This document shows positions 15,323-41,351 of a stretch of DNA of 41,351 nucleotides, in pieces. The notes beneath the pieces were generated by a model. That model was given only the letters and a program-made list of their open reading frames with translations, did not search any database and was not told the DNA's origin. A program made the position numbers and the translations under genes. The DNA comes from a gamma proteobacterium symbiont of Ctena orbiculata (lineage in GTDB: Bacteria; Pseudomonadota; Gammaproteobacteria; Chromatiales; Chromatiaceae). Location: positions 1-41,351 of the forward strand of contig NATW01000102.1 of NCBI GenBank assembly GCA_003094555.1, read 5' to 3'. Every line of letters starts with the position of its first letter. Position 1 is the stretch's first letter.

Positions 15323-16724
15323 TTTTCATATCCGGGTCGAACAAGCCCTGGCCAATGCTCAGCTCAAAGCGAGCTTGCGTTCCGCCATGGATGGATTGAT
15401 GGCCAGTCGCAAGGCCTGTTTTCCCGATGCCGACGCCCTGGAGAAACTGCGCCTGCGGGGAGCCCAGATCCGTGCCAACTCCCTGTCAAAACTGCCGCAA
15501 CTGTTGGAGCAGCTGGAACAGCGCTGCACCGGCAACGGCATCCATGTGCACTGGGCCGAGAGTGTGGATGCGGCGAATGAGATCGTCCTTGGCATCATGC
15601 GGGCCCACGAGGCCGAACTGCTGATCAAGGGTAAATCCATGGTCTCGGAAGAGATGGCGCTGAACCAGTATCTGGAATCCCACGGCATCGAGTGCCTGGA
15701 GTCGGACCTGGGTGAGTACATCCTGCAGCTTGCTGGCGAGCCCCCCTCGCACATCGTTGCGCCGGCCATCCACAAGACCCGCCAGGATATCGCCCAGCTG
15801 TTCAATGAAAAATTTCCCGACATCCCCTATAGCGATGACGTGGATACCCTGACCCGTAACGCCCGGGGCATTCTGCGCAAGAAATTCTACGCCGCCAGGG
15901 TGGGCCTCTCCGGGGTCAACTTTGCGGTTGCCGAAAGCGGCACCCTCTGCCTGGTGGAGAACGAGGGCAACGGGCGCATGTGCACCACCGTGCCGCCGGT
16001 GCATATCGCAGTGACCGGTATAGAAAAGGTGGTGGAGAAAATGGCCCACATCCCTCCCCTGCTGAAACTGCTCACCCGCAGCGCCACCGGGCAGCATATC
16101 ACCACCTACTTCAACATGATCAACTCCCCGCGCAAGCCGGGAGAGAAGGATGGGCCCAAAGAGGTCCATCTGATCCTGCTCGACAATGGCCGCTCGCGTA
16201 TCTATGAAGACAACGAGCTGGTCAACACCCTGCGTTGCATCCGCTGTGGTGCCTGCATGAACCACTGCCCCATCTATACCCGCATCGGCGGCCATGCCTA
16301 CGGCACCACCATACCCGGACCCATCGGCTCGATTCTCGAACCACAGAAGGCGGGAGCGGATGATCTGGGGGAACTACCTGTCGCCTCCACCCTCTGTGGC
16401 GCCTGCGCCGAGGTCTGCCCGGTGCGGATTCCGATACCCAAACTCCTGAATCGGCTGCGATACGAGCGCAATCGCGCAGACCGGGACGGCACCACCCATG
16501 GACAGGGCAGCGGCCGCAAGTTCATGGAAGCCACAATTTGGCAGGGGTGGAGCTGGCTGCATCGCAATCCGCGTCTGTATCGCCTGGCAACCACCTATGC
16601 CACCCGTATACGCAAGATACTGCCCATGGGTTTAGGCCCCTGGACCCAGGTGCGCGAGGCGCCACGTATCGCCCCCAAGACCCTGCATGAGCGCGCGCGG
16701 GAGGAGGGATTCAATGACCACTAG
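15306..16724 (+). CDS. lutB: Lactate utilisation iron-sulfur protein LutB
   Basis: A 472-residue protein. The N-terminal and middle part is a LUD-type domain with GKSMVSEEM, NYL-like NQYLESHGIE and the SGVNFAVAESGTLCLVENEGNGR segment. A ferredoxin-like region holds two [4Fe-4S] motifs, CIRCGACMNHCP near residue 311 and CGACAEVCPV near 365. This matches LutB/YkgF and is the electron-transfer and catalytic core of LutABC. Its start lies inside lutA and its last codons overlap lutC by 11 bp, so the three are translationally coupled. Full length, with all eight cluster cysteines present. Confidence 0.94.
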   Translation: MQQSADFHIRVEQALANAQLKASLRSAMDGLMASRKACFPDADALEKLRLRGAQIRANSLSKLPQLLEQLEQRCTGNGIHVHWAESVDAANEIVLGIMRAHEAELLIKGKSMVSEEMALNQYLESHGIECLESDLGEYILQLAGEPPSHIVAPAIHKTRQDIAQLFNEKFPDIPYSDDVDTLTRNARGILRKKFYAARVGLSGVNFAVAESGTLCLVENEGNGRMCTTVPPVHIAVTGIEKVVEKMAHIPPLLKLLTRSATGQHITTYFNMINSPRKPGEKDGPKEVHLILLDNGRSRIYEDNELVNTLRCIRCGACMNHCPIYTRIGGHAYGTTIPGPIGSILEPQKAGADDLGELPVASTLCGACAEVCPVRIPIPKLLNRLRYERNRADRDGTTHGQGSGRKFMEATIWQGWSWLHRNPRLYRLATTYATRIRKILPMGLGPWTQVREAPRIAPKTLHERAREEGFNDH

Positions 16725-17385
16725 CGCCAAACAGGCCATTCTGCAACGTTTGCGCATGAAACAGCCAAGCTTTGACACCCCGAGTCAACCCGTCGACATA
16801 GACAATCCGACCTGGCCGATGGCAGCACGCATCGCCCATTTCAAATCGATGCTCGAATCAGTGCGTGCCGAGGTCCATGTGGTCGACCCAGAGAACTGGA
16901 CCGACAGCTTGAAAAGCTTGCTCGCGGATAAACAGATCAACAACCTGCTATACGCAAAACAGGGGCCGCTGGCGCTAGGGATCGAGGCTGCCTGGGGAGA
17001 TACCCTACTCCCCGAACTTGTTTGTGACGAGAGGCCGGTGGATGAGTGGAAAGAAGAGATCTTTTTTCACACCGATGCGGCAGTCACATCAGCCAGGGCC
17101 GCCATAGCAGAGACCGGAAGCCTGATCCTATGGCCGGACGAATTCGAACCCCGCACCTGGTCCCTGGTACCGCCGGTACATTTCGTTGTGGTGGATAGCG
17201 AAAAGCTTTACAACAACTTTGCCGAGGCGGTCGAGGCCGAAGAGTGGGCGCAACAGATGCCGACTAATGCACTGCTCATATCAGGACCTTCCAAGTCGGC
17301 GGACATTCAGCAGACCCTGGCATATGGCGTGCACGGGCCCACTGAATTGATCGTGTTATTGCAATCCACGATTCAGCCAAACTGA
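16714..17385 (+). CDS. lutC: Lactate utilisation protein LutC (LUD domain)
   Basis: A 223-residue LUD-domain protein, third subunit of LutABC. Recognisable parts are KQAILQRL at the N-terminus, VTSARAAIAETGSLILWPDE (about residues 120-139), SLVPPVHFVVV, and the C-terminal ISGPSKSADIQQTLAYGVHGP, the LUD signature near the end. I use the ATG at 16714 because GGAGGAGGG lies just before it; an ATG at 16687 is in frame but lacks an SD. No lactate permease or regulator gene adjoins the cluster here. Confidence 0.93.
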   Translation: MTTSAKQAILQRLRMKQPSFDTPSQPVDIDNPTWPMAARIAHFKSMLESVRAEVHVVDPENWTDSLKSLLADKQINNLLYAKQGPLALGIEAAWGDTLLPELVCDERPVDEWKEEIFFHTDAAVTSARAAIAETGSLILWPDEFEPRTWSLVPPVHFVVVDSEKLYNNFAEAVEAEEWAQQMPTNALLISGPSKSADIQQTLAYGVHGPTELIVLLQSTIQPN

Positions 17386-17504: not shown

Positions 17505-18899
17505 ATGGAGCAGCGTAGCGTAAAAAGATCGAGCCCGATCGGTTTGTTGATTCTCGTGTTATTAATTTCGGGGTGCACCACCACCAACCCCTATCATTCC
17601 ATAGAATGGAAAGAAGGCAACTGCAACAATCCGAACAGCAGCGATTGCAAGCAGAGTTATTATCAGGAGTATCCGAATTATGATCTGGCGTTCGCCGAAT
17701 ATACCGAGCGTGGCAATGCCTTCAATGATGAATGGATACGCGAGGTCACATCAAAAATAGAGGAGCGCCGGGAGGCGAATGGCGTAGTGACGATCGTTTT
17801 CATTCACGGCTGGAAACACAATGCCGACGAAAACGACGAGAACCTCAAAGACTTCAAAAAAACCCTGGAAGTACTATCAGGTTCCGCGCAGTTGATAAAC
17901 AGGCGCCTGGTCGGTGTTTACATAGGATGGCGGGGGCTCAGCATCGAAATGCCCCTGCTCAAGGAAGTGACGTTCTGGGATCGTAAGGCGGTGGCACAGG
18001 AGGTCGGCAAGGGTGGGGTAACTCAGCTACTCCTGGAGCTGGCTAAGATCGACCATAAAGATCCAACTAATGTATTGGCGATTGTGGGACACAGTTTCGG
18101 CGGTGCGATTGCGGTTAGCGCAGTAACAGAAATCATCTCGGAAATCATAATCAATGACAGACAGGAACAGGAACCTGGTGGAACGATTGGGGATGCGGTA
18201 ATCGTGCTCAATCCGGCGATAGAAGCAAACCAGACATTAAACATGGTCGAGGCGGCGGTAAAAAATAAAATCACCGGCCCGAGCAATCCACTCTTTTATT
18301 CAATCAGCACTGACGCGGATTGGGCAACCCACTACGTCTTTCCTATCGGCCAGACCATCGGCCTGCTGTTTACATGGCGTCAGATGGATCTGCAACGATC
18401 CTACTACCACGACCGTCTGACTCAGGATTCGTTGATACTGCGGGAAGAACATCTCGACGCCACAACCACCGGTAACTTTGCACCCTATTTGACTCACCGC
18501 TTGAAAATGGATACCTCCAGCGAGATACCGGAACCGACTCTGCACAGCTGCGAAGAGCTACCGGACGCGTGTGTGCCAAAAGGATTGACAACGCTCGATG
18601 GGCACCCGGCTATCGGCCCTCTCCCTGAGAAATATCCACTCCAGTTCATTAAGACGGATAAAACGGTAATGGCAGGTCATAACGACATATTCAATCCAGA
18701 GATCCTGACCTTCATATACACCCTCATAGACGATGTGGTCCGCTATGCGATCAGTGACCACCCCGACTATGAGGACGATGGTATAGCGACCGGAAATATC
18801 CTTTCCAGACCTGACGATCTCAAAAACCGTTTCAGGCAGTTCTACCCGACAATAGAGTTGAAGATAAGCGAGGTACCATCAAACAGCGCTAAACCATGA
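17505..18899 (+). CDS. Alpha/beta-hydrolase lipoprotein
   Basis: A 464-residue lipoprotein. The signal sequence GLLILVLLISGC ends in a good lipobox (LISGC, Cys24). The body has an alpha/beta-hydrolase fold: VTIVFIHGWKHNA (about residues 95-107) gives the oxyanion-hole strand, and IVGHSFGGAIAV holds the nucleophile Ser197. A later Asp and a His in AGHNDIFN (about 394) are candidates for the rest of the triad. GGGAGGT precedes the ATG. Homologues are generally uncharacterised esterase- or lipase-like proteins; the substrate is unknown. It probably acts at the cell envelope. It stands alone on the plus strand, convergent with the next gene. Confidence 0.8.
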   Translation: MEQRSVKRSSPIGLLILVLLISGCTTTNPYHSIEWKEGNCNNPNSSDCKQSYYQEYPNYDLAFAEYTERGNAFNDEWIREVTSKIEERREANGVVTIVFIHGWKHNADENDENLKDFKKTLEVLSGSAQLINRRLVGVYIGWRGLSIEMPLLKEVTFWDRKAVAQEVGKGGVTQLLLELAKIDHKDPTNVLAIVGHSFGGAIAVSAVTEIISEIIINDRQEQEPGGTIGDAVIVLNPAIEANQTLNMVEAAVKNKITGPSNPLFYSISTDADWATHYVFPIGQTIGLLFTWRQMDLQRSYYHDRLTQDSLILREEHLDATTTGNFAPYLTHRLKMDTSSEIPEPTLHSCEELPDACVPKGLTTLDGHPAIGPLPEKYPLQFIKTDKTVMAGHNDIFNPEILTFIYTLIDDVVRYAISDHPDYEDDGIATGNILSRPDDLKNRFRQFYPTIELKISEVPSNSAKP

Positions 18900-30432: not shown

Positions 30433-30712
30433 ATGGACCTCCAGGAGAGCTTGATTTTTTAAGGATTGGAATATAGGGCTCCTGGATAATCGAACTGCGG
30501 AAAATCAAGGGACTCCCATGTGGTGTAAGACAATTCAATTACAGCATATGTTGACTATTTATAACCCTGCAAAAAAGGGCATTTCGCAGGTATTGTGAAT
30601 AATATCTTTACTCTTGATATATCTCTGCATATGACTACCCGCTCGACCACATGAGTGAGAAAGTGTATGCCTTGCGAACAGTCGATCCACGTTCTCCGGG
30701 AGCTTTCTCTTG

Positions 30713-31984
30713 CTATCCCTTTTTTGATCTATCAATCAGATGCTCGGCCACCAGTTCGGTCAGGCTGATCACCTGGGTATCCATTTCGTTATGCTCTATC
30801 CCCTCTTCCAGGATGATCCGGCAATTGGCGCATGCCGTGACCATGGTATTGACTCCTGTCTCCTGTAACTGCTGTTTCTTACGCTCGAAGACCCGCAGGC
30901 GCAACGGCTCGGCGCGCTCGTTGGCACTCACGCCACCACCGCCACCACAGCACCAGTTCATCACCCCATGGTCCTTCATCTCGACAAAGTTTTCCGCCAC
31001 ACTGTTGAGTAATTCCCGTGGCTGGTTGACGACACCACCGCGACGCACTATCTGACAGGGATCGTGCAGGGTCATGGGGGTTGTATCCATACCCTCCAAC
31101 TGCAGGCGTCCCTCCGCCTTTAACTGTTCCAGCAACTCCAGGATATGCACTACCTCGAAGGAGTATGGACGACCGATCAGGTTCGGTCCTTCCCAACGAA
31201 TAGCGGTATAGGCGTGGCCACATTCGGGACTGATGACAGTCTTGACACCCAACTCTTCCGCGGCGATCACAACCCGATTCACCAGTTCAGCCGCTGCCTC
31301 CTTTTTGCCGATCTGGACACCGCTGTTGGTGGCCTCGAAGGCATTGCTGTTGATTGTCCAGGAGACTCCCGCCGCATCGAAGATACGCGCGATACTCTCG
31401 ATAAATTCCGGAAAATTGACCACCTCCATGGAGGAGAAGAGAACCATGTAGTCGGCACCCTTTTTGTCCACCGGTATTTTCAACCCGCTATCCTTCTCCA
31501 CATGGGCCAGGGCGGCCTGGAGGGTCTTGAAGGTGACTCCCATGGGACTGCCGATCTTCAGCGCCCGCTTGGTCGCCTCTTTCATGCCGTCCGGCGCATA
31601 GCCCGCGACGGAGAAGCCTTCCCGCTGTTTACGTATCATGTAGGTGATGTCGTTACCCACCGGGCAGATCATGGAACAGCGGCCACACAGGGTGCAGCTG
31701 TCGTAGACAAGGGTCTCCCAATCGGCGAAATCTTTCTCGGTGACAGGCTCACTCAGACCGAACACTGAACCCAACTTACCCCAGAAGGTATGTTCCCGTC
31801 GCCAAAGCTTCTTCATCGGCTCGAGTTTGTAGATCGGCGTATAACGGGGATCATGGGTCTCTGTATAGAAGAGACAGGCCTCGGCGCAGAGCCCACAGTG
31901 GACGCAACTGGAGAAGTAGGATGAGATGCGGGAATCGATCTGTAGACGTAACGCCTCTACACCCTGCTCAAACTGTTCACTCAT
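30713..31984 (-). CDS. HdrD/DsrK-like iron-sulfur protein, end of formate dehydrogenase operon
   Basis: A 423-residue soluble Fe-S protein. Two [4Fe-4S] motifs are near the N-terminus: CVHCGLCAEAC (Cys27/30/33/37, followed by TETHDPRYTPIYKLEPM) and CTLCGRCSMICPVG (Cys97/100/103/107). C-terminal CCG-type elements follow: SPECGHAY, LHDPCQIVRRGG, MNWCCGGGGGV and TACANCR. This is the plan of HdrD, DsrK, TmcB and HmcF, where the CCG region binds a special [4Fe-4S] cluster for thiol/disulfide or quinone-linked chemistry. It follows a NarI-like membrane gene by 8 bp, giving a DsrMK/HdrED-like pair. The pair closes the formate dehydrogenase operon. The natural electron partner is unknown. No clear terminator follows. 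Confidence 0.87.
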   Translation of the reverse strand: MSEQFEQGVEALRLQIDSRISSYFSSCVHCGLCAEACLFYTETHDPRYTPIYKLEPMKKLWRREHTFWGKLGSVFGLSEPVTEKDFADWETLVYDSCTLCGRCSMICPVGNDITYMIRKQREGFSVAGYAPDGMKEATKRALKIGSPMGVTFKTLQAALAHVEKDSGLKIPVDKKGADYMVLFSSMEVVNFPEFIESIARIFDAAGVSWTINSNAFEATNSGVQIGKKEAAAELVNRVVIAAEELGVKTVISPECGHAYTAIRWEGPNLIGRPYSFEVVHILELLEQLKAEGRLQLEGMDTTPMTLHDPCQIVRRGGVVNQPRELLNSVAENFVEMKDHGVMNWCCGGGGGVSANERAEPLRLRVFERKKQQLQETGVNTMVTACANCRIILEEGIEHNEMDTQVISLTELVAEHLIDRSKKG

Positions 31985-31992
31985 GCCGCCCC

Positions 31993-32634
31993 CTATGCAT
32001 TGATACCTTTGCGTCCCATGGTTGCGCCGGTATAGCCGCGACTCATTACGAAGGTAAAGGTATGCATCAGCTTGCTGAATGGAAAATAGATCAGCAGCAA
32101 CTCGGCCAGTAGCAGATGGATCAGGCGCAGCGCCTCGAAGGATTGCGCCAATGCCAGACAGCCTGTCAGCATCACCAGAAACACCAGGACACTCCCCACA
32201 TGGTCATCCAAGTCCGAGAGCAGTCTCGTCACCGGACTGAGCAGACGATGGATCCATAACAGCAGCAGGCCAAGAAACGCCAGTTCGGCAGAGAGGATAA
32301 AGGCCCAATGGGGCATGCCCGGCCAACTGAAACCGGTGATCCTCTCGGCGTAGAAATCGATATGGGGTTGGGCGAAGAAGAGCAGCGCAAACAGCCCAAG
32401 GTGGAACAGATAGCCGGCGATCTGCAGCAGTCTGCCACGGGTGGCGGCAGTGCGCTCATACAGGGAACGGCTGAAGATAGTCCGCATCGCACCGGATGCT
32501 GCACTGCCTTTTGGCGTCGCAAGGTCCGTCCTGTTGCCCGCCATGAGAATCATCAAGATACGCCATACAACACCGATCACAAACACGCCCAGGGAGAAGA
32601 TCCACAAGGGCCCGTCGATGAACTGAGCGATCAT
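31993..32634 (-). CDS. NarI/DsrM-like membrane cytochrome b
   Basis: A 213-residue membrane protein with five or so helices, starting PLWIFSLGVFVIGVVWRILMILMA. Histidines placed within or beside helices (GYLFHLGLFALLF, LLLLWIHRLL, LRLIHLLLAELLLIYFPFSKLMHTFTF) fit two b-type hemes as in NarI and DsrM/HmcE, which exchange electrons with quinones. The frame opens 46 codons upstream inside fdhC, but I start at ATG 32634, where GGGGAGG precedes it and ATGA overlaps the fdhC stop. Paired with the downstream CCG iron-sulfur protein. Confidence 0.85.
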   Translation of the reverse strand: MIAQFIDGPLWIFSLGVFVIGVVWRILMILMAGNRTDLATPKGSAASGAMRTIFSRSLYERTAATRGRLLQIAGYLFHLGLFALLFFAQPHIDFYAERITGFSWPGMPHWAFILSAELAFLGLLLLWIHRLLSPVTRLLSDLDDHVGSVLVFLVMLTGCLALAQSFEALRLIHLLLAELLLIYFPFSKLMHTFTFVMSRGYTGATMGRKGINA

Positions 32635-33719
32635 TTGCCTGCCTCCCCAAGCTCTCGACCGAGGGATCTGTTGGTATCGGGGTCGCTGAACCGGTTCACT
32701 TCTTCGTTGGCTATCGCTTCTCCCCGCTTTTCCATCTGCGTCGCCCACAGATCGTGATGTTCCTTGGCCCAATTCAGGTCACAGTATCCTGACTTCATAC
32801 CTTCGATGGCGCCCTGCATACCGATGCTGCCAATATAGATGTGACCAAGTATCACACCGATCATGAGAATCGCACCGATGGCGTGACCCACATGGGCCAG
32901 CTCCATCCACTCCCGACTCTGACCGAATATGGGAAATACCAATACCAGACCGGACGCCACAATCACTGAACCCACGATTATCAGCATCCAGAACATGCTC
33001 TTCTCGCCCATATTGAAAAAGTTGGACGGAACATGTTTTTTACCGATGATGCCACCCCCCCGCAACAGCCAACTCATATCCCCCTTCTGATAGATGTTGC
33101 GGCGAACGAATTTTATAAACACCAGGATCAGGGCAATCATAAACAGGGGCCCCATCAGATTGTGCCCCTCTTTGCTGGCCGATGCGATAACCGAGAAGAT
33201 CTCCTTGCCGAAGAGGGGAATCAATACTGGTCGACCGAACAAAATGATCAGACCGGTAATGGCGAGAAACAGGAAAATCGATGCCATGAACCAGTGGATC
33301 AAGCGTTCATAGCTGGTATAGCGGGGCAGCTTCCTGTCCGACTCACCACCGACAATCTTCACTTTGCCGCGGATCAGGTAGAAAAGGATTAAACCTATAC
33401 CTATGCCCAGCAACAGGTATCCACCGATGGGTATCAACTGCTGCATACGGAATTTTCGCCACTTGTCCCCATAGGCATTGATCAGCACACCCGTGTCCAC
33501 ACCCCTTACCTGAGTGGTACCGGATGCGGGCATATCCCGCTGGCGCACATCCCGCCACAACTCCGCAGCGGGATTGAGTACCGCTACTGAAGGCAGGCCT
33601 CTCGACTCCTTGGACTCGGCAAAGCTATGCAGTGGCAGGACAATCAACCACAACAGCAACAACCATGCTGTGGTGTTACTGCCCTGACCAGCTGCAGATA
33701 GGTTGCAGAACCTGTTCAT
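32631..33719 (-). CDS. fdhC: Formate dehydrogenase cytochrome b subunit (FdhC)
   Basis: A 362-residue protein. An N-terminal signal peptide (about residues 16-36) and a periplasmic stretch lead to about four membrane helices. Heme-ligand histidines sit in YERLIHWFMAS, SKEGHNLMGPL, and AHVGHAIGAILMIGVILGHIYIG, as in FdnI/FdoI-type cytochrome b556. It passes electrons from FdhAB to the quinone pool. The longer open frame (to 34169) translates fdhB in the wrong frame at its start and is rejected; the ATG at 33719 is used, with GGGAGAG upstream. It overlaps the next gene by 4 bp. Confidence 0.9.
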   Translation of the reverse strand: MNRFCNLSAAGQGSNTTAWLLLLWLIVLPLHSFAESKESRGLPSVAVLNPAAELWRDVRQRDMPASGTTQVRGVDTGVLINAYGDKWRKFRMQQLIPIGGYLLLGIGIGLILFYLIRGKVKIVGGESDRKLPRYTSYERLIHWFMASIFLFLAITGLIILFGRPVLIPLFGKEIFSVIASASKEGHNLMGPLFMIALILVFIKFVRRNIYQKGDMSWLLRGGGIIGKKHVPSNFFNMGEKSMFWMLIIVGSVIVASGLVLVFPIFGQSREWMELAHVGHAIGAILMIGVILGHIYIGSIGMQGAIEGMKSGYCDLNWAKEHHDLWATQMEKRGEAIANEEVNRFSDPDTNRSLGRELGEAGK

Positions 33720-33748
33720 AGCGAACCAACTCTCCCTATTGCGCTGCT

Positions 33749-34378
33749 TCACTCTTTGGCGCTGCTCTTGCCGGCACCACTGGAGGGTGCGCGGAAAGAG
33801 GCATCGCGATAGGAGACACCCCGCGCCATCACACTCGCACTGCGATTGATGACGCGTTTGCGATAGATGTCTGAAATCGTATCCGAGTCTCCGGCCAACA
33901 GGGCCTTGGTGGAGCACATCTCCGCACATAACGGCAGCTTGCCTTCGGCGAGACGGTTTGAGCCATACTTTCTGTGCTCGTCGGAGCTGTTGTCGGCCTC
34001 CGGTCCACCGGCGCAGAAGGTGCATTTGTCCATCTTGCCCCGGGTGGCGAACGCCCCATCCTCGGGAAACTGAGGTGCGCCGAAGGGACAGGCGTAGAAG
34101 CAGTAGCCGCAGCCGATGCAGATATCCTTGTCGTGGAGAACGACCCCGTCCTGGGTGGTATAGAAGCAATCCACCGGACAGACCGTGGCGCAGGGAGCAT
34201 CCGAACAGTGCATACAGGCCACCGACAACGAGCGTTCACCTTCGTCACCATCGTTAATGGTCACCACCCGGCGGCGGTTGACGCCCCATGGAACCTCGTT
34301 CTCGTTCTTACAGGCGGTAACGCAGGCATTGCACTCGATACAACGCTCGGGATCGCAATAGAATTTCATTCGTGCCAT
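33749..34378 (-). CDS. fdhB: Formate dehydrogenase iron-sulfur subunit (FdhB)
   Basis: A 209-residue ferredoxin-type subunit with four [4Fe-4S] motif groups: CIECNACVTACKNE, CMHCSDAPCATVCPV, CIGCGYCFYACPFGAP, and CTFCAGG with a later CAEMC. It carries electrons from the molybdopterin subunit to FdhC. There is no C-terminal membrane anchor of the FdnH kind, and the tail after the cluster region is short. It lies 26 bp after fdhA and 29 bp before fdhC, clearly in one operon. No signal peptide is present, consistent with export together with FdhA through Tat. Confidence 0.93.
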   Translation of the reverse strand: MARMKFYCDPERCIECNACVTACKNENEVPWGVNRRRVVTINDGDEGERSLSVACMHCSDAPCATVCPVDCFYTTQDGVVLHDKDICIGCGYCFYACPFGAPQFPEDGAFATRGKMDKCTFCAGGPEADNSSDEHRKYGSNRLAEGKLPLCAEMCSTKALLAGDSDTISDIYRKRVINRSASVMARGVSYRDASFRAPSSGAGKSSAKE

Positions 34379-34404
34379 GTTGATATCCTCTGTTTAAAAC
34401 TCGT

Positions 34405-37299
34405 TTACGCTTTACTGATGCGACAGAGACTGCATTTGGTCTCCTGCATCTGCGTCACCGAGTCATAGCCATAGGTCATGGCCGTGTTACAGGCTTCGCC
34501 CAGAACATAGGGATCCGCACCCTCGGGATACTTACTGCGCAGATCCTTACCCAGGAAGTGGCCGCCGAAATGGAACGGCATGAAGGCCACACCCGCAGCA
34601 ACCCGTCGGGTCACCATCGCCTTGACTTTAATGCGGGCGCCCTCGGCGCCCTCCACCCAGACATCCTCCCCGTCACTGACACCGGCATTGTTGGCATCCC
34701 GCGGATGCATCTCGATAAACATATCCTGCTGCAGCTCCGCCAACCAGGGATTGGAGCGGGACTCATCACCGCCACCCTCATACTCCACCAGACGCCCCGA
34801 GGTGAGGATGATGGGAAAATCCTTGGAGTAGTCCTTGGCCTGAATCGAACCGTAACGGGTCGGCAGGCGATAGAAGGACTTGCGATCCTCATAGGTGGGA
34901 TACTTCTCCACCAGATCACGCCGGTTGGTGTACAAGGGTTCCCGATGTACCGGCACCGGATCGGGGAAGGTCCAGACCATGGCCCGGGCCTTGGCGTTAC
35001 CAAAGGGCGCGCAGCCATGCTTGATGGCGACCCGCTGGATACCGCCGGAACGGTCGGTCTTCCAGTTCTTGCCCTCCGCCAGTTGCTTCTCCTCCGGGGT
35101 CAGGTCATCCCACCAGCCCAGTTTCTTCAACAGGTCGGCGGTGAATTCCGGATGACCGTTCTTAATCTCGTTGCCCACCGGGTAGGATCCCTCGGCCAGG
35201 AGGTTTTCACCATTGCGCTCGACACCGAATCGGGCGCGGAAGTTGAGACCGCCCTTGGCCACGGGCTTGCTGGTATCGTAGAGATTGGGTGTCCCCGGAT
35301 GAGCCATCTCCGCAGTGCCCCAACAGGGCCAGGGCAGACCGTAGTACTCACCGTCGCAGGCACCGCCCTCCGCCAACAGGCTGGTATAGTCGAAGGTACC
35401 CCAGTTCTGCTGCTGTTTCTTCATCCGCTCGGGGCTCTGGCCGGTATAACCGATGGTCCACATACCGTTGTTGAACTCGCGGGTGATATCCTCGATCAGG
35501 GGTTCGTCGTTCTCCACCTTGATGTTCTTAAACAGCTCATCGGCGAAACCGAGCTTGCTGGCCAGGCGATACATGATGGTGTGATCCGGCAGGGACTCGA
35601 ATATGGGCTCGATGACCTTGTCCCGCCACTGCAGTGAGCGGTTGGATGCGGTGACCGATCCATAGGTCTCGAACTGGGTGGCGGCGGGCAACAGATAGAC
35701 CCCGTCGGTCCGGTCGTGCATCACTGCGGAGACCGTGGGATAGGGATCGATGATCACCATCATATCCAGCTTTTCCATGGCCTTCTTCATCTCCGGGCCG
35801 CGGGTTTGGCTGTTGGGCGCGTGCCCCCATAAGACCATCACCCGAACGTTATCCTTCTGGGCAATGTTTCCCTTCTCTTCCAATACACCATCTATCCAGC
35901 GGGAGACAGGGATACCCTTGGTATTCATGGGCGACACATCCTTGCCCTTGGATTGTTCATAACTGCCCGGATCGAAGCGGCCGGCCACCCAGTCGTAATC
36001 CACACCCCAGACCTTGGACCAATGCCCCCAGGCACCCTTCGACAGACCGTAGTAGCCCGGCAGGGTATGGGATAGCACGCCGAAGTCGGTGGCCCCCTGT
36101 ACATTGTCGTGGCCGCGGAAGATATTGGTGCCGCCGCCGGAGGTACCCATGTTGCCCAGGGCCAGCTGGAAGACGCAGTAGGCGCGGGTGTTGTTGTTGC
36201 CGATCGTGTGCTGGGTACCGCCCATGCACCAGATGAAGGTGCCGGGGCGGTTGTCCGCCATGGTCTTGGCGGCGGCATAGACCTGGTTCTCGGGGACACC
36301 GGAGACACGCTCCACCTCTTCGGGTGTCCACTTGGCGATCTCCTTCTTCACCTCCTCCAGACCGTAGACCCGTTGCCGGATGAACTCCTTGTCCTCCCAG
36401 CCGTTTTTGAATATGTGCCAGAGCATGCCCCAGATGACGGGCACGTCGGTACCCGGGCGCAGCCTCAGGAACTGATTGGCATGGGCGGCGGTGCGGGTGA
36501 AACGCGGATCGATAACGATCAATTGGGCATTGTTCTGTTCCTTCGCCTTGAACACATGCTGCAGGGAGACCGGATGGGCCTCCGCCGGATTACCACCGAT
36601 GATCAGAATCGACTTCGAGTTATGGATGTCGTTGTAGGAGTTGGTCATGGCACCGTAGCCCCAGGTATTGGCAACCCCGGCAACGGTGGTCGAGTGACAG
36701 ATGCGGGCCTGGTGGTCCACATTGTTGGTGCCCCAAAAGGCCGCGAACTTGCGGAACAGGTAGGCCTGTTCGTTATTGTGCTTGGCCGATCCCAGCCAGT
36801 AGACCGAATCGGGACTCGACTGCTCGCGCACCTCGAGCATCTTGTCGCCGATCTCGTTGATCGCCTGCTCCCAGGAGATGCGTTTCCATTTGCCGTCCAC
36901 CAGCTTGGTGGGATACTTCAGGCGTCGCTCACCATGTCCATGCTCCCGCACCGAGGCACCCTTGGCGCAGTGGGCACCCAGGTTGAAGGGGTGATCGAAG
37001 GCCGGCTCCTGGCCGGTCCAGACACCGTTTTCGACCTCGGCGATGATGCCGCAACCCACCGAACAGTGGGTGCAGATGGTCTTGATCTGTTCCGCCTGGC
37101 CCTTTTCGGTTGTCGCCGCCTCGGCCTTTTTCATCATGCCCGGGGTAAATCCGCTGGCCAATGCGGCGCCACCCGCCACCAGGCTGGAGTTGCGTAGAAA
37201 GTCGCGACGGCTCATGCTCTGACCGGCGGACGCTCTCTCGGGTGAAACCGAATCACTACTGCTGTGGTTCACCAGATCGGAGGTTTTATGCAGTTTCAT
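34405..37299 (-). CDS. fdhA: Formate dehydrogenase catalytic subunit, Cys form (FdhA)
   Basis: A 964-residue molybdopterin enzyme that oxidises formate to CO2. A Tat signal has SRRDFLR at residues 30-36 followed by a hydrophobic stretch, so it works in the periplasm. The [4Fe-4S] site is CTHCSVGC (Cys76, 79, 83) plus Cys111. The metal ligand is Cys201 in ARICHSTTVAG, encoded by TGT, so this is the selenium-independent form; His202 follows as usual. SILIIGGNPAEAHPV, GGTQHTIGNNNTRAY and the C-terminal LTSGRLVEYEGGG domain match FdhA/FdnG. GAGGAT precedes the ATG. Mo versus W cannot be told from sequence. It lies just after fdhX and a TorD-like chaperone that would aid its maturation. Confidence 0.96.
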   Translation of the reverse strand: MKLHKTSDLVNHSSSDSVSPERASAGQSMSRRDFLRNSSLVAGGAALASGFTPGMMKKAEAATTEKGQAEQIKTICTHCSVGCGIIAEVENGVWTGQEPAFDHPFNLGAHCAKGASVREHGHGERRLKYPTKLVDGKWKRISWEQAINEIGDKMLEVREQSSPDSVYWLGSAKHNNEQAYLFRKFAAFWGTNNVDHQARICHSTTVAGVANTWGYGAMTNSYNDIHNSKSILIIGGNPAEAHPVSLQHVFKAKEQNNAQLIVIDPRFTRTAAHANQFLRLRPGTDVPVIWGMLWHIFKNGWEDKEFIRQRVYGLEEVKKEIAKWTPEEVERVSGVPENQVYAAAKTMADNRPGTFIWCMGGTQHTIGNNNTRAYCVFQLALGNMGTSGGGTNIFRGHDNVQGATDFGVLSHTLPGYYGLSKGAWGHWSKVWGVDYDWVAGRFDPGSYEQSKGKDVSPMNTKGIPVSRWIDGVLEEKGNIAQKDNVRVMVLWGHAPNSQTRGPEMKKAMEKLDMMVIIDPYPTVSAVMHDRTDGVYLLPAATQFETYGSVTASNRSLQWRDKVIEPIFESLPDHTIMYRLASKLGFADELFKNIKVENDEPLIEDITREFNNGMWTIGYTGQSPERMKKQQQNWGTFDYTSLLAEGGACDGEYYGLPWPCWGTAEMAHPGTPNLYDTSKPVAKGGLNFRARFGVERNGENLLAEGSYPVGNEIKNGHPEFTADLLKKLGWWDDLTPEEKQLAEGKNWKTDRSGGIQRVAIKHGCAPFGNAKARAMVWTFPDPVPVHREPLYTNRRDLVEKYPTYEDRKSFYRLPTRYGSIQAKDYSKDFPIILTSGRLVEYEGGGDESRSNPWLAELQQDMFIEMHPRDANNAGVSDGEDVWVEGAEGARIKVKAMVTRRVAAGVAFMPFHFGGHFLGKDLRSKYPEGADPYVLGEACNTAMTYGYDSVTQMQETKCSLCRISKA

Positions 37300-37318
37300 T
37301 CAGATATCCTCTAAAAAC

Positions 37319-37531
37319 TCAGCTCAGGGTGGACTTGTAGTAGGCCGCAATGTGAGGTGTCAGTCGGTAGCCCTTCTTCGCCTTTGGCGTTTCGCTATCG
37401 GTTTCATCCACGGAAGCTGTCGTCAGACCGGGCAGGCTGGCTGCGACGGCGACACCAACACCGGCACTCGCAGTGCTACGCAGAAACGCCCTGCGTTTCG
37501 GATCTGGTTTCTGCTTATGCTGTTTTTTCAT
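37319..37531 (-). CDS. fdhX: Small Tat-targeted formate dehydrogenase protein (FdhX)
   Basis: A 70-residue protein with a twin-arginine signal (KRRAFLRSTASAGVGVAVAASLPG). Its short C-terminal region, KKGYRLTPHIAAYYKSTL, is conserved in small proteins found directly before fdhA in many proteobacterial formate dehydrogenase operons. It precedes fdhA by 19 bp. Its exact role (assembly or a small subunit) is not known. Confidence 0.9.
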   Translation of the reverse strand: MKKQHKQKPDPKRRAFLRSTASAGVGVAVAASLPGLTTASVDETDSETPKAKKGYRLTPHIAAYYKSTLS

Positions 37532-37587
37532 GAAATCATCCTCCGGTCGGATTCACAGTTCAGTCATGGCATCATCGATAAATCAGG

Positions 37588-38256
37588 TTACACAGGCATA
37601 CTCAGATAACGTTTCTCCATCGCTGCGAATGCGGCGCCGAAACGCCCCACCGCACGATAGAAGACAGCGGTTTTCGCCTCACTCAAATCAGCGAAAAAAC
37701 GCTCCAGCCAACCAGCCATGTGTGATTCGTAGAAGTGTGATTGCTGCTGGAAACCGACCCCCTCAGTGATCAACATCGCCATCACTTCGCACAGCGCGGC
37801 AACATGATCCTCCGGTTCGGTTACACCTTCCTGGCGCTGGAATCCCAACATGGCCAGGTCGTCCCGCAGCTTTCCCAGGGGCTTTTCCATCAGGAAGCCG
37901 GTGAGATACCAGGAGCCATAGGGCACCAGCTCGCCGCGACCCATGCCGATGAACAGATCGTGAAACTCCACATCCACCGCTTGCGGTTTAGAGTCCGAAG
38001 CGGAGAGTCCCAACATGGACATCGCCAATGCCAACTCATCCCTGGTTGGCTCTATGCCTGCGAAACCGGCGACCTGGTCGAGCATCGATTGATCCGGGGC
38101 CTGTCGCAACAGTTGCGCCAGCATGCCGTAGGCACCGATCCGATAGTGCTGTTCCTGGTCCAGGCCGACGCCTTGAGCCGCCTCAGCCGTTGCATCAGGC
38201 TGCTGGCTCTTTGGATACTCATTGTCGGGTTGAACAGCTTGGTTCAAATCGGTCAT
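37588..38256 (-). CDS. TorD/DmsD-family chaperone
   Basis: A 222-residue all-helical chaperone for molybdoenzyme maturation. Typical parts are RIGAYGMLAQLLRQAPD (about residue 40), VEFHDLFIGMGRGELVPYGSWYLTGFLMEKPLGKLRDDL (about 96-134), EPEDHVAALCEVMAMLI, and the HMAGWLERFFADL helix. It likely binds the Tat signal of FdhA and/or FdhX until the cofactor is in place. The ATG at 38256 is preferred over an earlier start because GAGGAGAG precedes it and a candidate sigma-54 promoter lies immediately upstream. First gene of the TorD-fdhXABC part of the operon. Confidence 0.91.
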   Translation of the reverse strand: MTDLNQAVQPDNEYPKSQQPDATAEAAQGVGLDQEQHYRIGAYGMLAQLLRQAPDQSMLDQVAGFAGIEPTRDELALAMSMLGLSASDSKPQAVDVEFHDLFIGMGRGELVPYGSWYLTGFLMEKPLGKLRDDLAMLGFQRQEGVTEPEDHVAALCEVMAMLITEGVGFQQQSHFYESHMAGWLERFFADLSEAKTAVFYRAVGRFGAAFAAMEKRYLSMPV

Positions 38257-38282
38257 CACACTCTCCTCAGCTGAATAGTGTT

Positions 38283-38298
38283 TGCAAGCAATGGACCA
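38283..38298 (-). promoter_or_regulatory. Candidate sigma-54 promoter before the TorD-like gene
   Basis: On the minus strand TGGTCCATTGCTTGCA (38298-38283) has GG and GC separated by exactly 10 bp and a full TTGCA at -12. The predicted start near 38273 leaves a short leader that includes the torD SD. Its -24 half departs from TGGCAC in a few bases. Confidence 0.6.
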
Positions 38299-38360
38299 GC
38301 CCTGGTGGGAAATAAATGACAAATTGGACTGATATCGACCAAGTCTCCGCCCTCCCCGCC

Positions 38361-38389
38361 TGTCAAACGGTGCCGGCCTGTATCTGACA
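38361..38389. promoter_or_regulatory. TGTC-N21-GACA inverted repeat, candidate activator site
   Basis: TGTCA (38361-38365) and TGACA (38385-38389) are 5-bp arms, centred about 78 bp upstream of the -24 element of the torD-proximal sigma-54 promoter. Spacing is nearly that of the repeat at 41225-41260, which suggests the same activator. With 5-bp arms it could arise by chance. Confidence 0.3.
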
Positions 38390-38407
38390 AGGGGTCAAAA
38401 TGCGGCG

Positions 38408-40036
38408 CTACTGTCGAAACCGACCATCCAGGTCACCCCCCATGGCTTCCGAGTCCTGCACGATATCCACCACCCGGCAGGCGTCACACAGGGTCAGGCG
38501 CTTGAGTGCCCTTTCACTCTGGAACATATAGTGATCCTTGAGCTTGCTGCGCATCTTGTCGATCACGGAACGGGTTGCGAAGGGTTTACCGCAGGATGTA
38601 CAGCGAAAGGGTTCCTCTTCCCGCAGGGTGCGCGTCTGGGTGCGACTCTCTGACTCGAACAACAGGCGCGGGGTAATCCAGATGGCATCCTCGGGACAGG
38701 TGCGGGTACAGAGTCCGCACTGCAGACAGTTGGCCTCGATGAATTGCAGCTGTGGCAGACCCTCGCTGCCGCTCTGCAGCGCCTTGCCGGGACAGGCCCC
38801 GACACAGGACATACACAGGGTACAGGCCTTCTCTTCCACGTAGACCGTACCGAAGGGGGCACCCGTAGGGAGGTTGGCCATGGGTTTTGACCGCTCTGCC
38901 TGGGCATACAGATGATCGAGAGCGAGATAGATCGATTGACGTTTGCTGCCGATCCCCGAGTGGGCCGCTGCCTCGATCTCGGGCATCCCATCCCCCGCCT
39001 CCTCCACGAGTGCCGTATGCTCTACGAGTCGAATCGATGCCTGGGGATAACCCATGGCAGTAAGGATTTCACCACTGATGGTCAACTGTTCTTGCAGAGC
39101 ACCCATCACGGATGGCGGCATCCCACCGCCGTCCGCCAACAATACCTGCCTGGCGCCATAGGCCAGGGAAGTCAGCCAGACATCCATGCCGATGCTGGCC
39201 AGTTCCTCCACCATCACCGGTAAATAATGGGCGGGGATATCATCCGGCAACACTTGATCCGATGCAGCGTGAAACACCACCACCGGGGAGCTGCCCCCCT
39301 GCTCCCGATAGATGGACAGCAGCTTGCGCAGTCGCTGCAGGTTGTCTTTGACCGAGGGATAGACATAGCGAATCGCGCCGCTGGGGCAGACACTGGCGCA
39401 TGCCCCCCCTCCCTGGCAGAGGTAGTTGTTCACTTCGATGGTTTCCGCCAGGCCGGTGATCGCATCGGCGGGGCAGGCATCGATACAGCGGGTGCAGGCG
39501 GTGTTACCCGAACGACCATGGGCACAGATCGCCGGATCGTAGTCGAAATAGCGGGGCTTTTCGAAATTACCGGTCATCTGCGCCACTTCTTCGAGCACCG
39601 CTGCGAGCTGATCCTCCTCGATACTGGCGTGGTAGTAACCGGGCGGGTTCATACCCCGGCTCATCAACGGCTGCCGGGAGAGATCGAGGATCAGATCCAC
39701 CGCCAGGGTCTCCCCATTGGCGCGGCCCGCTTCGCCCAGGTGTATCTTGAAATCACCCAGATAACCCTCTAACCGCAGGGTGCGGCCACCCACCGGCACC
39801 ACTGGGGCTCCCGGCTCCTCCGCACCTTCGGTCAGGACCACGATCGGACTCAGTCTGTCATTGAGCCGCGGCGCAATCTCCAGCGCCGTTTGATCACCGA
39901 TTACCGCCACCCGACCCCGGGACTGATAGTTCACCAGACTGGTCGGCTCTACAGGGACTCCCTGCATGGCATGCAGTGCCTGGTCCCGGGCCCGGCGGTT
40001 GGCCATCGTATCAGGGGATATCTTCGATTCACTCAT
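38408..40036 (-). CDS. Multi-[4Fe-4S] protein of the formate dehydrogenase locus
   Basis: A 542-residue protein. After an N-terminal region with VAVIGDQTALEIAP and LDLSRQPLM it has four ferredoxin-type motifs: CTRCIDACP near residue 183, CQGGGACASVCP near 210, CTLCMSCVGACP near 407 and CLQCGLCTRTCP near 440. Zinc-ribbon-like CTSCGKPF and CDAC follow near the C-terminus. It regularly accompanies DUF3305/DUF3306 and Fdh genes, probably as an assembly or electron-transfer factor; the role is not firmly known. No signal peptide, so cytoplasmic. Its ATG overlaps the DUF3306 stop by 4 bp (ATGA). 151 bp and a candidate promoter separate it from the TorD-like gene. Confidence 0.88.
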   Translation of the reverse strand: MSESKISPDTMANRRARDQALHAMQGVPVEPTSLVNYQSRGRVAVIGDQTALEIAPRLNDRLSPIVVLTEGAEEPGAPVVPVGGRTLRLEGYLGDFKIHLGEAGRANGETLAVDLILDLSRQPLMSRGMNPPGYYHASIEEDQLAAVLEEVAQMTGNFEKPRYFDYDPAICAHGRSGNTACTRCIDACPADAITGLAETIEVNNYLCQGGGACASVCPSGAIRYVYPSVKDNLQRLRKLLSIYREQGGSSPVVVFHAASDQVLPDDIPAHYLPVMVEELASIGMDVWLTSLAYGARQVLLADGGGMPPSVMGALQEQLTISGEILTAMGYPQASIRLVEHTALVEEAGDGMPEIEAAAHSGIGSKRQSIYLALDHLYAQAERSKPMANLPTGAPFGTVYVEEKACTLCMSCVGACPGKALQSGSEGLPQLQFIEANCLQCGLCTRTCPEDAIWITPRLLFESESRTQTRTLREEEPFRCTSCGKPFATRSVIDKMRSKLKDHYMFQSERALKRLTLCDACRVVDIVQDSEAMGGDLDGRFRQ

Positions 40037-40578
40037 GTTTCAACCTCATCACTTGGATCCTCTTGCTGCCCGGTCAGGGGTGGTGACGGCTCATCACCGG
40101 CCTTATCGTCCGCAGCTACCCCCCGGCTGGGCATAGGGTCGTCGCCATCCCTATCCAATGCCTGGGCCTGGGCCAGCTCATCCTCTTCGGCCTGTTTTTT
40201 CAGTGCCTCCTGCTCAAGCCTGTGGCGCAGATCCGCGGTCATCACATTGCCCAACTTCTCAAAACTGGTGAAATCCTCCGCGTAGTCATCCAGACCGTCG
40301 CAGACATTGAAGGCGGCACTGTGGAAAAGCTTGTCCAGGGCCAGTTGGCGCAGCTGCTCGGATACCTTGGGGGAGAGAAAACCGCTGTAGTCGGAGTCTT
40401 CATTCAGACTCTCCAGTGGCGGCATATCTGCGTCGCTGGGCTGCTGTTCCTCGTCGACCGGTTCTTCCAGTTCCACCACAGGTTGCTGGGCGGCCTGTTT
40501 TTTCTCGGACCAGCGACGGTAGAAACCCTCATCGCTCTGAACGGTTGTCTCCGGCGAGTCCTCAGGCTTCATGATCAT
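40033..40578 (-). CDS. DUF3306 protein of the formate dehydrogenase locus
   Basis: A 181-residue, highly acidic, Pro/Gln/Glu-rich protein. The DUF3306 core is seen in FYRRWSEKKQAAQ (residues 19-31), SDYSGFLSPKVSEQLRQLALDKLFHSAAFNVCDGLDDYAEDFTSFEKLGNVMTADLRHRLEQE. The C-terminal tail is low-complexity and charged. Family members sit in formate dehydrogenase clusters; a role in enzyme assembly is likely but unproven. The start is MIM; an ATG two codons in is equally possible. It overlaps DUF3305 by 17 bp and the next gene by 4 bp. Confidence 0.87.
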   Translation of the reverse strand: MIMKPEDSPETTVQSDEGFYRRWSEKKQAAQQPVVELEEPVDEEQQPSDADMPPLESLNEDSDYSGFLSPKVSEQLRQLALDKLFHSAAFNVCDGLDDYAEDFTSFEKLGNVMTADLRHRLEQEALKKQAEEDELAQAQALDRDGDDPMPSRGVAADDKAGDEPSPPLTGQQEDPSDEVET

Positions 40579-41092
40579 CCGGTCCCGGAGCCGACGATTT
40601 CCAGTCGGTGCGCTTGCGTTTGGTGCGCTTCTGCGGCACGTAGTGATTCAGCACGAAGGCCTCTGTCCACCGATAGAGCTCGGCCGGCAGGGGCACGGTA
40701 TAGACCGCGTCATCCCCTTCCAGGTAGGCATGGGCCTCATCGTAACTGAGACTGACCAGGAAGGGCTCCGGCTTGCCCTGGTCATCCAGATTCGCCACCA
40801 CATAACAGTGGGGCTGAATCGAGAGCAGATTGTAGTAGTAGCTTTCACACTCATCTTCATACAGGCGCAGGGTGAAACCGGAATAGAGATAGCGATTCAC
40901 TGAACCCTCCTGGTGAATCAGGCTCGGTGCGGCCCTGTCGCCCCGCTCCTCGACCAGGTCGCTGATGATGCCAACCGCCTCCCAGTTGTTCTCAAGCCAT
41001 TGAGAATCGCTGGGTGATTGCTGCATGATCACAGAAACATTGAATTTCGAAGGGTTATCAGCCTTCGCCTGGTCGTTATTGGTCGCTGTCAT
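40562..41092 (-). CDS. DUF3305 protein of the formate dehydrogenase locus
   Basis: A 176-residue protein. The DUF3305 core shows VSVIMQQSPSDSQWLENNWEAVGIISD (residues 19-45), LYSGFTLRLYEDECESYYYNLLSIQPHCYVV, and a C-terminal RWTEAFVLNHYVPQKRTKRKRTDW tail rich in Lys/Arg. It is the first gene of the operon; CAGGG lies 10 nt before the ATG. DUF3305 and DUF3306 are found side by side in fdh loci, and their presence supports the identity of the whole cluster. Exact role unknown. Confidence 0.89.
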   Translation of the reverse strand: MTATNNDQAKADNPSKFNVSVIMQQSPSDSQWLENNWEAVGIISDLVEERGDRAAPSLIHQEGSVNRYLYSGFTLRLYEDECESYYYNLLSIQPHCYVVANLDDQGKPEPFLVSLSYDEAHAYLEGDDAVYTVPLPAELYRWTEAFVLNHYVPQKRTKRKRTDWKSSAPGPDDHEA

Positions 41093-41127
41093 GGTTCAAT
41101 ACCCTGAACTTATCCAATTGTGCTACC

Positions 41128-41143
41128 GCAAGTTGCATACCAA
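41128..41143 (-). promoter_or_regulatory. Candidate sigma-54 promoter of the formate dehydrogenase operon
   Basis: On the minus strand TTGGTATGCAACTTGC (41143-41128): GG (-24) and GC (-12) are exactly 10 bp apart, with TTGC complete and TGGTATG close to the TGGCACG consensus. Predicted start near 41116, about 25 nt before the DUF3305 ATG, which leaves room for its SD. Confidence 0.68.
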
Positions 41144-41224
41144 ACCCCTGCCGGGGCAGAAAAATCAGACAGGAGTCGCAATGGAAAAATAGTCTTAAAA
41201 ACGGAAGAGGAGAAAAACAGGGCA

Positions 41225-41260
41225 AAATGTCCCGTTTAGTCTCACTGAAGTGGGACATTT
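41225..41260. promoter_or_regulatory. Inverted repeat, candidate enhancer site for a sigma-54 activator
   Basis: AAATGTCCC (41225-41233) and GGGACATTT (41252-41260) are perfect 9-bp arms 18 bp apart, giving TGTC-N22-GACA. The centre lies about 125 bp upstream of the predicted start, the usual range for an NtrC-type activator. No T-tract follows, so termination is unlikely. Confidence 0.5.
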
Positions 41261-41283
41261 CACACCATTTGTCACCCCCACGG

Positions 41284-41318
41284 GGCATCAGGCTTAGATA
41301 ATCGTCCCCACTGATGCC
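41284..41318. repeat. Second inverted repeat in the fdh control region
   Basis: GGCATCAG (41284-41291) and CTGATGCC (41311-41318), perfect 8-bp arms 19 bp apart, flanked by GGGG and CCCC near the outside. It could be a further regulator site or the end of a neighbouring unit cut off by the window. Confidence 0.35.
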
Positions 41319-41351
41319 TATCCCCGCTCCATCCTCGGGATCGGAGATGGA

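Follow-up and report, generated by a model that had tools for sequence, protein, structure and literature searches.

The window analyzed here, a 41,351-nt stretch comprising contig C102 (NATW01000102.1) of a gammaproteobacterial symbiont of Ctena orbiculata, carries on its minus strand an operon for a periplasmic formate dehydrogenase (FDH), with the gene order DUF3305, DUF3306, multi-4Fe-4S protein, TorD-family chaperone (torD), small twin-arginine (Tat) protein, FdhA, FdhB and FdhC. Comparative sequence evidence indicates that this locus is very probably served by two sigma-54 promoters, P1 upstream of the DUF3305 gene and P2 upstream of torD. We assign a probability of roughly 75% to the fuller reading that both are real sigma-54 promoters and that an NtrC-type response regulator encoded on a separate contig (C151) activates P1, P2 and the promoter of a tungstate-uptake (tup) operon. 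From the computed features, namely the sites, their conservation, the co-occurrence of regulator and operon, and a shared dyad type, we infer a circuit in which the phosphorylated regulator, partnered by an adjacent Cache-domain histidine kinase, would occupy two 15-bp dyads, whose centres lie 84 and 117 nt ahead of P1, and remodel the sigma-54 RNA polymerase at both promoters. P1 would then drive DUF3305-DUF3306-FeS, and probably the whole operon, while P2 would add expression from torD through FdhABC. The same regulator would also act on tupABC-mobA-mobB-moeA, through the sigma-54 promoter divergent from its own gene, and so induce enzyme, cofactor assembly and metal supply together. As to the signal, the predicted sensor domain of the kinase prompts no more than a guess, namely formate or a related small molecule.

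Sigma-54 promoters follow a consensus near TGGCAC-N5-TTGC, with the GG (-24) and GC (-12) pairs 10 nt apart. P1 (TGGTATGCAACTTGCG, 41127-41142, minus strand) and P2 (TGGTCCATTGCTTGCA, 38283-38298, minus strand) both have the exact GG-N10-GC spacing with TTGC at the -12 side, as a first-pass annotation of the window had described, within the spans that it gave. P1 reads TGGTATGCAACTTGC, with TGG starting at 41142 and TTGC ending at 41128 (GG 41141-41140, GC 41129-41128), and P2 reads TGGTCCATTGCTTGC, with TGG starting at 38298 and TTGC ending at 38284 (GG 38297-38296, GC 38285-38284). The same annotation had placed both sites 15-30 nt ahead of a Shine-Dalgarno sequence and start codon, which holds for torD (27 nt from the -12 element to the ATG at 38256), whereas the distance for DUF3305 is slightly longer (35 nt, ATG at 41092); the Shine-Dalgarno sequence of DUF3305 appears weak. 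Its view that the sites lie at the natural promoter positions of the operon was borne out: P1 and P2 occupy the two largest gaps between the contig end and FdhA, the DUF3305/DUF3306 and DUF3306/Fe-S gene pairs overlap, and the remaining gaps measure 151 nt (Fe-S-torD), 56 nt (torD-Tat) and 19 nt (Tat-FdhA).

The further claim that two such sites are unlikely by chance did not stand for the motif itself. The pattern TGGYNYNNNNNTTGC, whose Y positions were picked after the sites had been seen, matched five times in the window compared to 1.59 expected (five matches were reached by 3 of 100 shuffles), and the genome-wide scoring that had been proposed, run with this pattern, returned many equally good matches (230 versus 94 for the reversed pattern). 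In a matrix scan of the window, P1 and P2 ranked second and third, at 13.2 and 13.1 bits, and a site inside torD scored 12.7. Because the motif is common in the genome and the window holds other sites that score near or above P1 and P2, the motif alone is weak evidence, and we set the motif-only argument aside as insufficient; P1 and P2 stand beyond chance because of their position and conservation.

To assess conservation, we scanned the window, the orthologous loci of 25 other genomes and five named contigs (six further named contigs were omitted as duplicates), taking the best sigma-54 score within -200 to +30 of each gene start and a cut-off of 11 bits. A site of at least 11 bits was found before DUF3305 in 28 of 31 loci and before torD in 24 of 27, with the control genes yielding 0/31 (DUF3306), 0/31 (Fe-S), 3/25 (FdhA), 0/22 (FdhB) and 1/22 (FdhC). 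One torD match (L088, at -119) probably lies within the Fe-S gene and is spurious; the three DUF3305 misses are L078, L082 and L066, and in the first two of these the site is located farther upstream, behind an insertion. In Cocleimonas flava DSM 24830 (L062), the sites before DUF3305 and torD scored as high as 16.6 and 18.5 bits. In a pattern search within 330 bp, P1 was recovered from 25 of 26 loci of the genome set and P2 from 21 of 24. Position and spacing are conserved in relatives whose DUF3305 proteins are 29-82% identical; the identity of 1.0 in the alignment core follows from the procedure itself, in which the TGG/TTGC pattern served as the anchor. Both upstream regions that the first-pass annotation had singled out for a conservation check, those of DUF3305 and torD, thus carry conserved sites. 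Separately, the insertion in L078 and L082 lies between P1 and DUF3305, leaving P1 and its dyads behind it, and shows inverted repeats AACGCCAATCACCGCAAA ... TTTGCGGTGATTGGCGTT in L078 that are imperfect in L082.

Across the class, DUF3305 was present in 46 of 369 sampled genomes, and these gave 40 further loci (G000, the genome of the window, along with G010, G066 and G071, were already in the relatives set, and G409 and G117 were left out). Sites of at least 12 bits preceded DUF3305 in 17 of 40 class loci and torD in 11 of 34 (one of these, L174 at -144, probably falls inside the Fe-S gene), compared to 1/39 for DUF3306, 0/35 for Fe-S, 0/32 for FdhA, 0/24 for FdhB; among random 320-bp stretches drawn from the class loci, 14 of 600 had such a site. 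When P2 was counted within 100 nt of torD (10 loci) among the 34 loci, it occurred in 10 of 15 P1-positive and 0 of 19 P1-negative loci (Fisher p 2e-5). Two sigma-54 promoters for one FDH locus, as originally proposed, are therefore backed by conservation among relatives and by class-wide co-occurrence. The sites have sigma-54 spacing, are conserved at orthologous positions, and reside in a genome that encodes rpoN and enhancer-binding proteins.

No gene for an enhancer-binding protein with the GAFTGA motif was detected in the window or in the stretches of up to ~14 kb from relatives. Such a gene was located within ~10 kb of DUF3305 in 10 of 40 class loci, nine of which were extracted for comparison with the genome of the window, which holds 22 high-scoring sigma-54 activators; 20 of the 22 entered the best-match test, with L022 and L023 falling outside it through the motif filter. 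For all nine, the best match was the same protein, L014 on contig C151, at 50-69% identity, with the next at 44% or less. A GAFTGA gene near DUF3305 in locus L163 was left out, having failed the Walker A filter, and the candidate has no orthologue at 400 bits in that genome. The L014 gene (L226:7814-9226) encodes an NtrC-type response regulator with the domain order receiver, sigma-54 AAA+, Fis-type HTH, and is followed directly by the gene of a histidine kinase whose domains are Cache, HisKA and HATPase (L226:9236-11359). Among the 25 listed of 119 NCBIfam families matched, L014 passes no cut-off; it scores best with AtoC, at 405 of the 714 bits required, and reaches 394 of 559 for NtrC and 274 of 830 for the formate-hydrogenlyase activator. 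E. coli FhlA, to which the first-pass annotation had likened the system, is not a response regulator and exerts sigma-54 control over fdhF and hyc, that is, over cytoplasmic formate hydrogenlyase. The parallel stands insofar as a formate enzyme is placed under sigma-54 control, but it is not the closest one because the candidate here is a receiver-AAA-HTH response regulator and lies far below the cut-off of the FhlA-type model.

Among the relatives, the distribution of the candidate matches that of DUF3305. Of 93 relatives, the 26 with a DUF3305 match all carry an L014 orthologue (at least 545 bits), and the other 67 carry none. The next regulator scores were 497 (G050), 453 (G028), 378 over a partial protein (G037), and then at most 364 bits; G050, G028 and G037 (L231, L232 and L233) carry these regulator homologues in genomes lacking a DUF3305 match, and no FdhA match was obtained in the 7-20 kb stretches around them. 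The congeneric 2.6-Mb genome G015 has neither a DUF3305 match nor a regulator orthologue, as expected for joint loss. Regulator and DUF3305 share a contig in 18 of the 26 genomes, always on the same strand, with the regulator 3 to 38 kb upstream in 17 of these and ~23 kb downstream of DUF3305 in G066; in the other eight, including the genome of the window, the two reside on separate contigs. In the class set, where presence was called at a 400-bit cut-off from a list entered by hand, the regulator was found in 13 of 17 P1-positive versus 7 of 23 P1-negative loci (p 0.0095); for P2, the figures were 9 of 10 positive versus 9 of 24 negative loci (p 0.008).

Divergent from the regulator gene is a tupABC-mobA-mobB-moeA operon (L226:2813-7492), encoding a TupA-like binding protein, a permease, an ATPase, MobA, MobB and MoeA. 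The best solved relative of the TupA-like protein is 3muq, a Vibrio parahaemolyticus protein that has been proposed to be classed as TupA and that is aligned under locus tag VP1501 (PMC5517513). Between tupA and the regulator gene, a sigma-54 site, TGGCACTTCTTTTGCA, faces tupA at 15.5 bits in the genome of the window. Of the 26 relatives with DUF3305, 25 have a tup-facing site of at least 12.0 bits and L218 falls short at 10.7, compared to 48 of 600 random 700-bp stretches reaching 12 bits; the same 700 bp read toward the regulator reached 12 bits in 7 of 26, some of these sites lying within tupA. A TupA match on the divergent side was obtained for 23 of 26 relatives, each of them with a facing site of at least 12 bits; the stretches of the three unmatched loci, L215, L218 and L221, may be too short. 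The genomes with a regulator homologue and no DUF3305 match had tup-side scores of 8.1, 5.6 and 11.3. The dyad core GTCATTTTGACCC or a variant was present in the tup-regulator region in 18 of 26 relatives versus 88 of 600 random stretches.

The dyads upstream of P1 offer a possible link between the fdh and tup promoter regions. The proximal copy, GGGACATTTTGCCCT (41219-41233, minus strand), is centred 84 nt upstream of the P1 TGG, and the centre of the distal copy, GGTGTGAAATGTCCC (41252-41266, minus strand), lies 33 bp from it; two putative dyads at this separation, reading GGTGTG-AAA-TGTCCC and GGGACA-TTT-TGCCCT, give P1 the makings of an upstream activator sequence (UAS). The exact proximal copy occurs once in the genome, and its core resembles the dyad upstream of tupA. 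Within 330 bp upstream of DUF3305, GGGACATTTTGCC was found in 18 of 30 loci and a dyad-pattern match in 23 of 30 versus 151 of 2000 random stretches; for the distal dyad, the outer GGT and inner TGTCCC are conserved in the 25-locus alignment. In the class set, a strict dyad preceded DUF3305 in 7 of 17 P1-positive versus 1 of 23 P1-negative loci (p 0.006). A genome search with the dyad core GNCAWTWTGNCC yielded 30 matches versus 27 for the control, so the core alone is uninformative for finding further regulon members; three of the 30 had a sigma-54 score of at least 12 within 300 bp, namely fdh, tup and L280. On balance, we favor, with moderate confidence, the generalization that in many gammaproteobacterial families a dedicated two-component system controls periplasmic FDH (from two promoters), tungstate uptake and molybdopterin-cofactor assembly through sigma-54 and a GGGNCA-N3-TGNCCC dyad, as one regulon answering one periplasmic signal.

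The first-pass annotation could name no precedent for sigma-54 control of such an operon; precedents do exist. In V. parahaemolyticus, rpoN deletion lowers expression of VP1510-VP1515 by log2 3.2 to 4.8, of VP1508 by 1.84 and of VP1501 by 1.45, and predicted sigma-54 sites are given at VP1501, VP1508 and VP1510, all three marked as V. cholerae RpoN ChIP-seq peaks (PMC9817140). VP1502 is an NtrC-family regulator and VP1503 a histidine kinase (PMC10469919). As in the genome of the window, TupA (VP1501), regulator, kinase, Fe-S protein, chaperone and FDH subunits are all encoded, in Vibrio at close locus numbers. The second fdh site is located before the Fe-S gene in Vibrio and before torD in the window. 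Judging by gene order, VP1508 would be the DUF3305 gene and VP1502 the L014 orthologue. The accessible portions of PMC9817140, PMC10469919 and PMC5517513 contain no statement that VP1502 activates fdh, and an open-licence literature search found no paper naming this activator. In Geobacter sulfurreducens, the fdnG operon (GSU0777-0781) has an RpoN promoter mapped by primer extension (PMC2725144), and as an FDH operon with an activator gene upstream it resembles the present case; in contrast, its enzyme is a selenocysteine protein, and DUF3305 and DUF3306 do not appear in the operon as listed in the accessible text. A computational survey also placed formate dehydrogenases in a COG for which it predicts sigma-54 regulation (PMC12316311).

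Several observations weigh against the reading that the C151 regulator activates P1, P2 and the tup promoter. The sigma-54 scoring matrix was typed from recall, the cut-offs of 12 bits for sites and 400 bits for the regulator in the class set were chosen after the values had been seen, and the association tests take no account of shared ancestry. Seven class loci have the regulator and lack P1, and in four others P1 is present but no regulator was detected (of these four, two come from assemblies of >500 contigs and a third from one of 400); in eight of the 26 relatives, the region next to the regulator gene lacks the dyad core. In vitro, the V. parahaemolyticus VP1510 promoter was not shifted by purified RpoN, and its control is described by the authors as indirect (PMC9817140). 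Finally, a dyad match upstream of torD was obtained in 7 of 27 loci, one of them doubtful, compared to 151 of 2000 random stretches, such that most torD promoters lack a recognizable dyad.

This last point bears on the alternative that fares best, although we consider it distinctly less probable: that P1 is activated by the C151 regulator through the dyads, whereas P2 depends on another activator or on a T-rich block, TTTGTCATTTNTTTNCC, the two promoters answering different signals. In most loci, P2 retains its sigma-54 site without a canonical dyad, the alignment shows conservation of the T-rich block before P2, and 5 of 15 class loci have P1 without P2. A separate activator for P2 is harder to reconcile with the absence of P2 from all 19 P1-negative loci of the class sample and with the presence of the regulator in all but one of the P2-positive class loci. 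P2 does have a UAS-like element, CATTTTGACCC (38392-38402, minus strand), 94-104 nt upstream of its TGG, and before torD CATTTTGACC is limited to the window and the three relatives closest to it; two Cocleimonas loci have a different dyad there. P2 could be activated either from the P1 dyads ~2.9 kb away, or through a degenerate site, or by another activator. The T-rich block lies at ~38325-38306 before P2 and at ~41203-41183 before P1 in the window (both minus strand), the latter reading GGATTATTTTCC in relatives; its distance to the promoter differs between P1 and P2.

A second alternative, which we regard as unlikely, accepts the sigma-54 promoters and assigns them to a different one of the ~22 enhancer-binding proteins, leaving the C151 regulator to control tungstate uptake only. 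The size of this repertoire, the two activators outside the best-match test, the P1-negative loci that retain the regulator and the incomplete occurrence of the dyad core beside it are all compatible with such an arrangement. However, the same dyad type occurs upstream of DUF3305, the extracted fdh-linked activators point without exception to the C151 regulator, and this regulator tracks DUF3305 perfectly among the relatives. That the GG/GC pairs are chance matches in an operon using sigma-70 promoters is very improbable: equally good matches abound in the genome and a higher-scoring site exists in the window, but position and spacing persist across divergent relatives, P1 and P2 co-occur, a simple scan of 30500-41351 found no sigma-70-like site on the minus strand (three on the plus strand, 4.8 expected overall), and the Vibrio counterpart is expressed less without rpoN (PMC9817140).

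The effect of rpoN on fdh was already known from Vibrio; this analysis adds, on comparative sequence grounds, a candidate for the activator, another for its binding site and, as a third putative promoter of the circuit, that of tup, through which tungstate uptake and cofactor assembly would be tied in. With the candidate activator and site, the Vibrio observation becomes a testable circuit in which regulator pairs of the VP1502/VP1503 type may have a role and tungstate supply would be coupled to an enzyme that may need it. The nearest named relatives of the 4.07-Mb genome (193 contigs, single rpoN) are Candidatus Thiodiazotropha symbionts of lucinid clams, with a DUF3305 protein 81% identical to that of Ca. 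T. endolucinida. Ca. Thiodiazotropha has been reported to gain energy by oxidizing formate (PMC6712303, PMC11171427), and an fdhA of these symbionts, which may or may not be that of the present operon, showed higher expression in non-upwelling samples (PMC12172469).

All operon genes are on the minus strand. The first gene after P1 encodes the DUF3305 protein (40562-41092; PF11749, 129 bits), followed by the DUF3306 protein (40033-40578; PF11748, 68 bits) and the multi-4Fe-4S protein with Fer4 family domains (38408-40036). The first gene after P2 is torD (37588-38256; PF02613), and the translation of the small Tat protein gene (37319-37531) contains an RRAFLRST motif. FdhA (34405-37299) has a twin-arginine leader, an uninterrupted frame and CysHis (C201-H202) at the candidate active site, and its best solved relative is 9vap_A. 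FdhB (33749-34378) scores 342 bits with the FDH3_beta model NF038355 (cut-off 240), which by sequence classes the predicted enzyme as an FDH3-type formate dehydrogenase, and FdhC (32631-33749, start provisional), the cytochrome b gamma subunit, scores 159 bits with TIGR01583 (cut-off 115.85). In fdhGHI operons linked to NarJ-family chaperones, DUF3305 and DUF3306 have been described upstream (PMC4464133). Downstream of FdhC on the minus strand lie genes for a CCG/4Fe-4S protein (30713-31984) and a protein without a Pfam match (31993-32772), both of which may be part of the operon. An Rfam scan of the window gave no match at the gathering cut-offs, and terminator-like sites numbered 7 versus 7.0 expected, one of them (41162-41145, minus strand) directly before P1. 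The top-scoring sigma-54-like site of the window, TGGCATATGGCGTGCA (17318-17333, plus strand, 14.3 bits), lies inside an open reading frame at 16687-17385, ~170 nt before the one at 17505.

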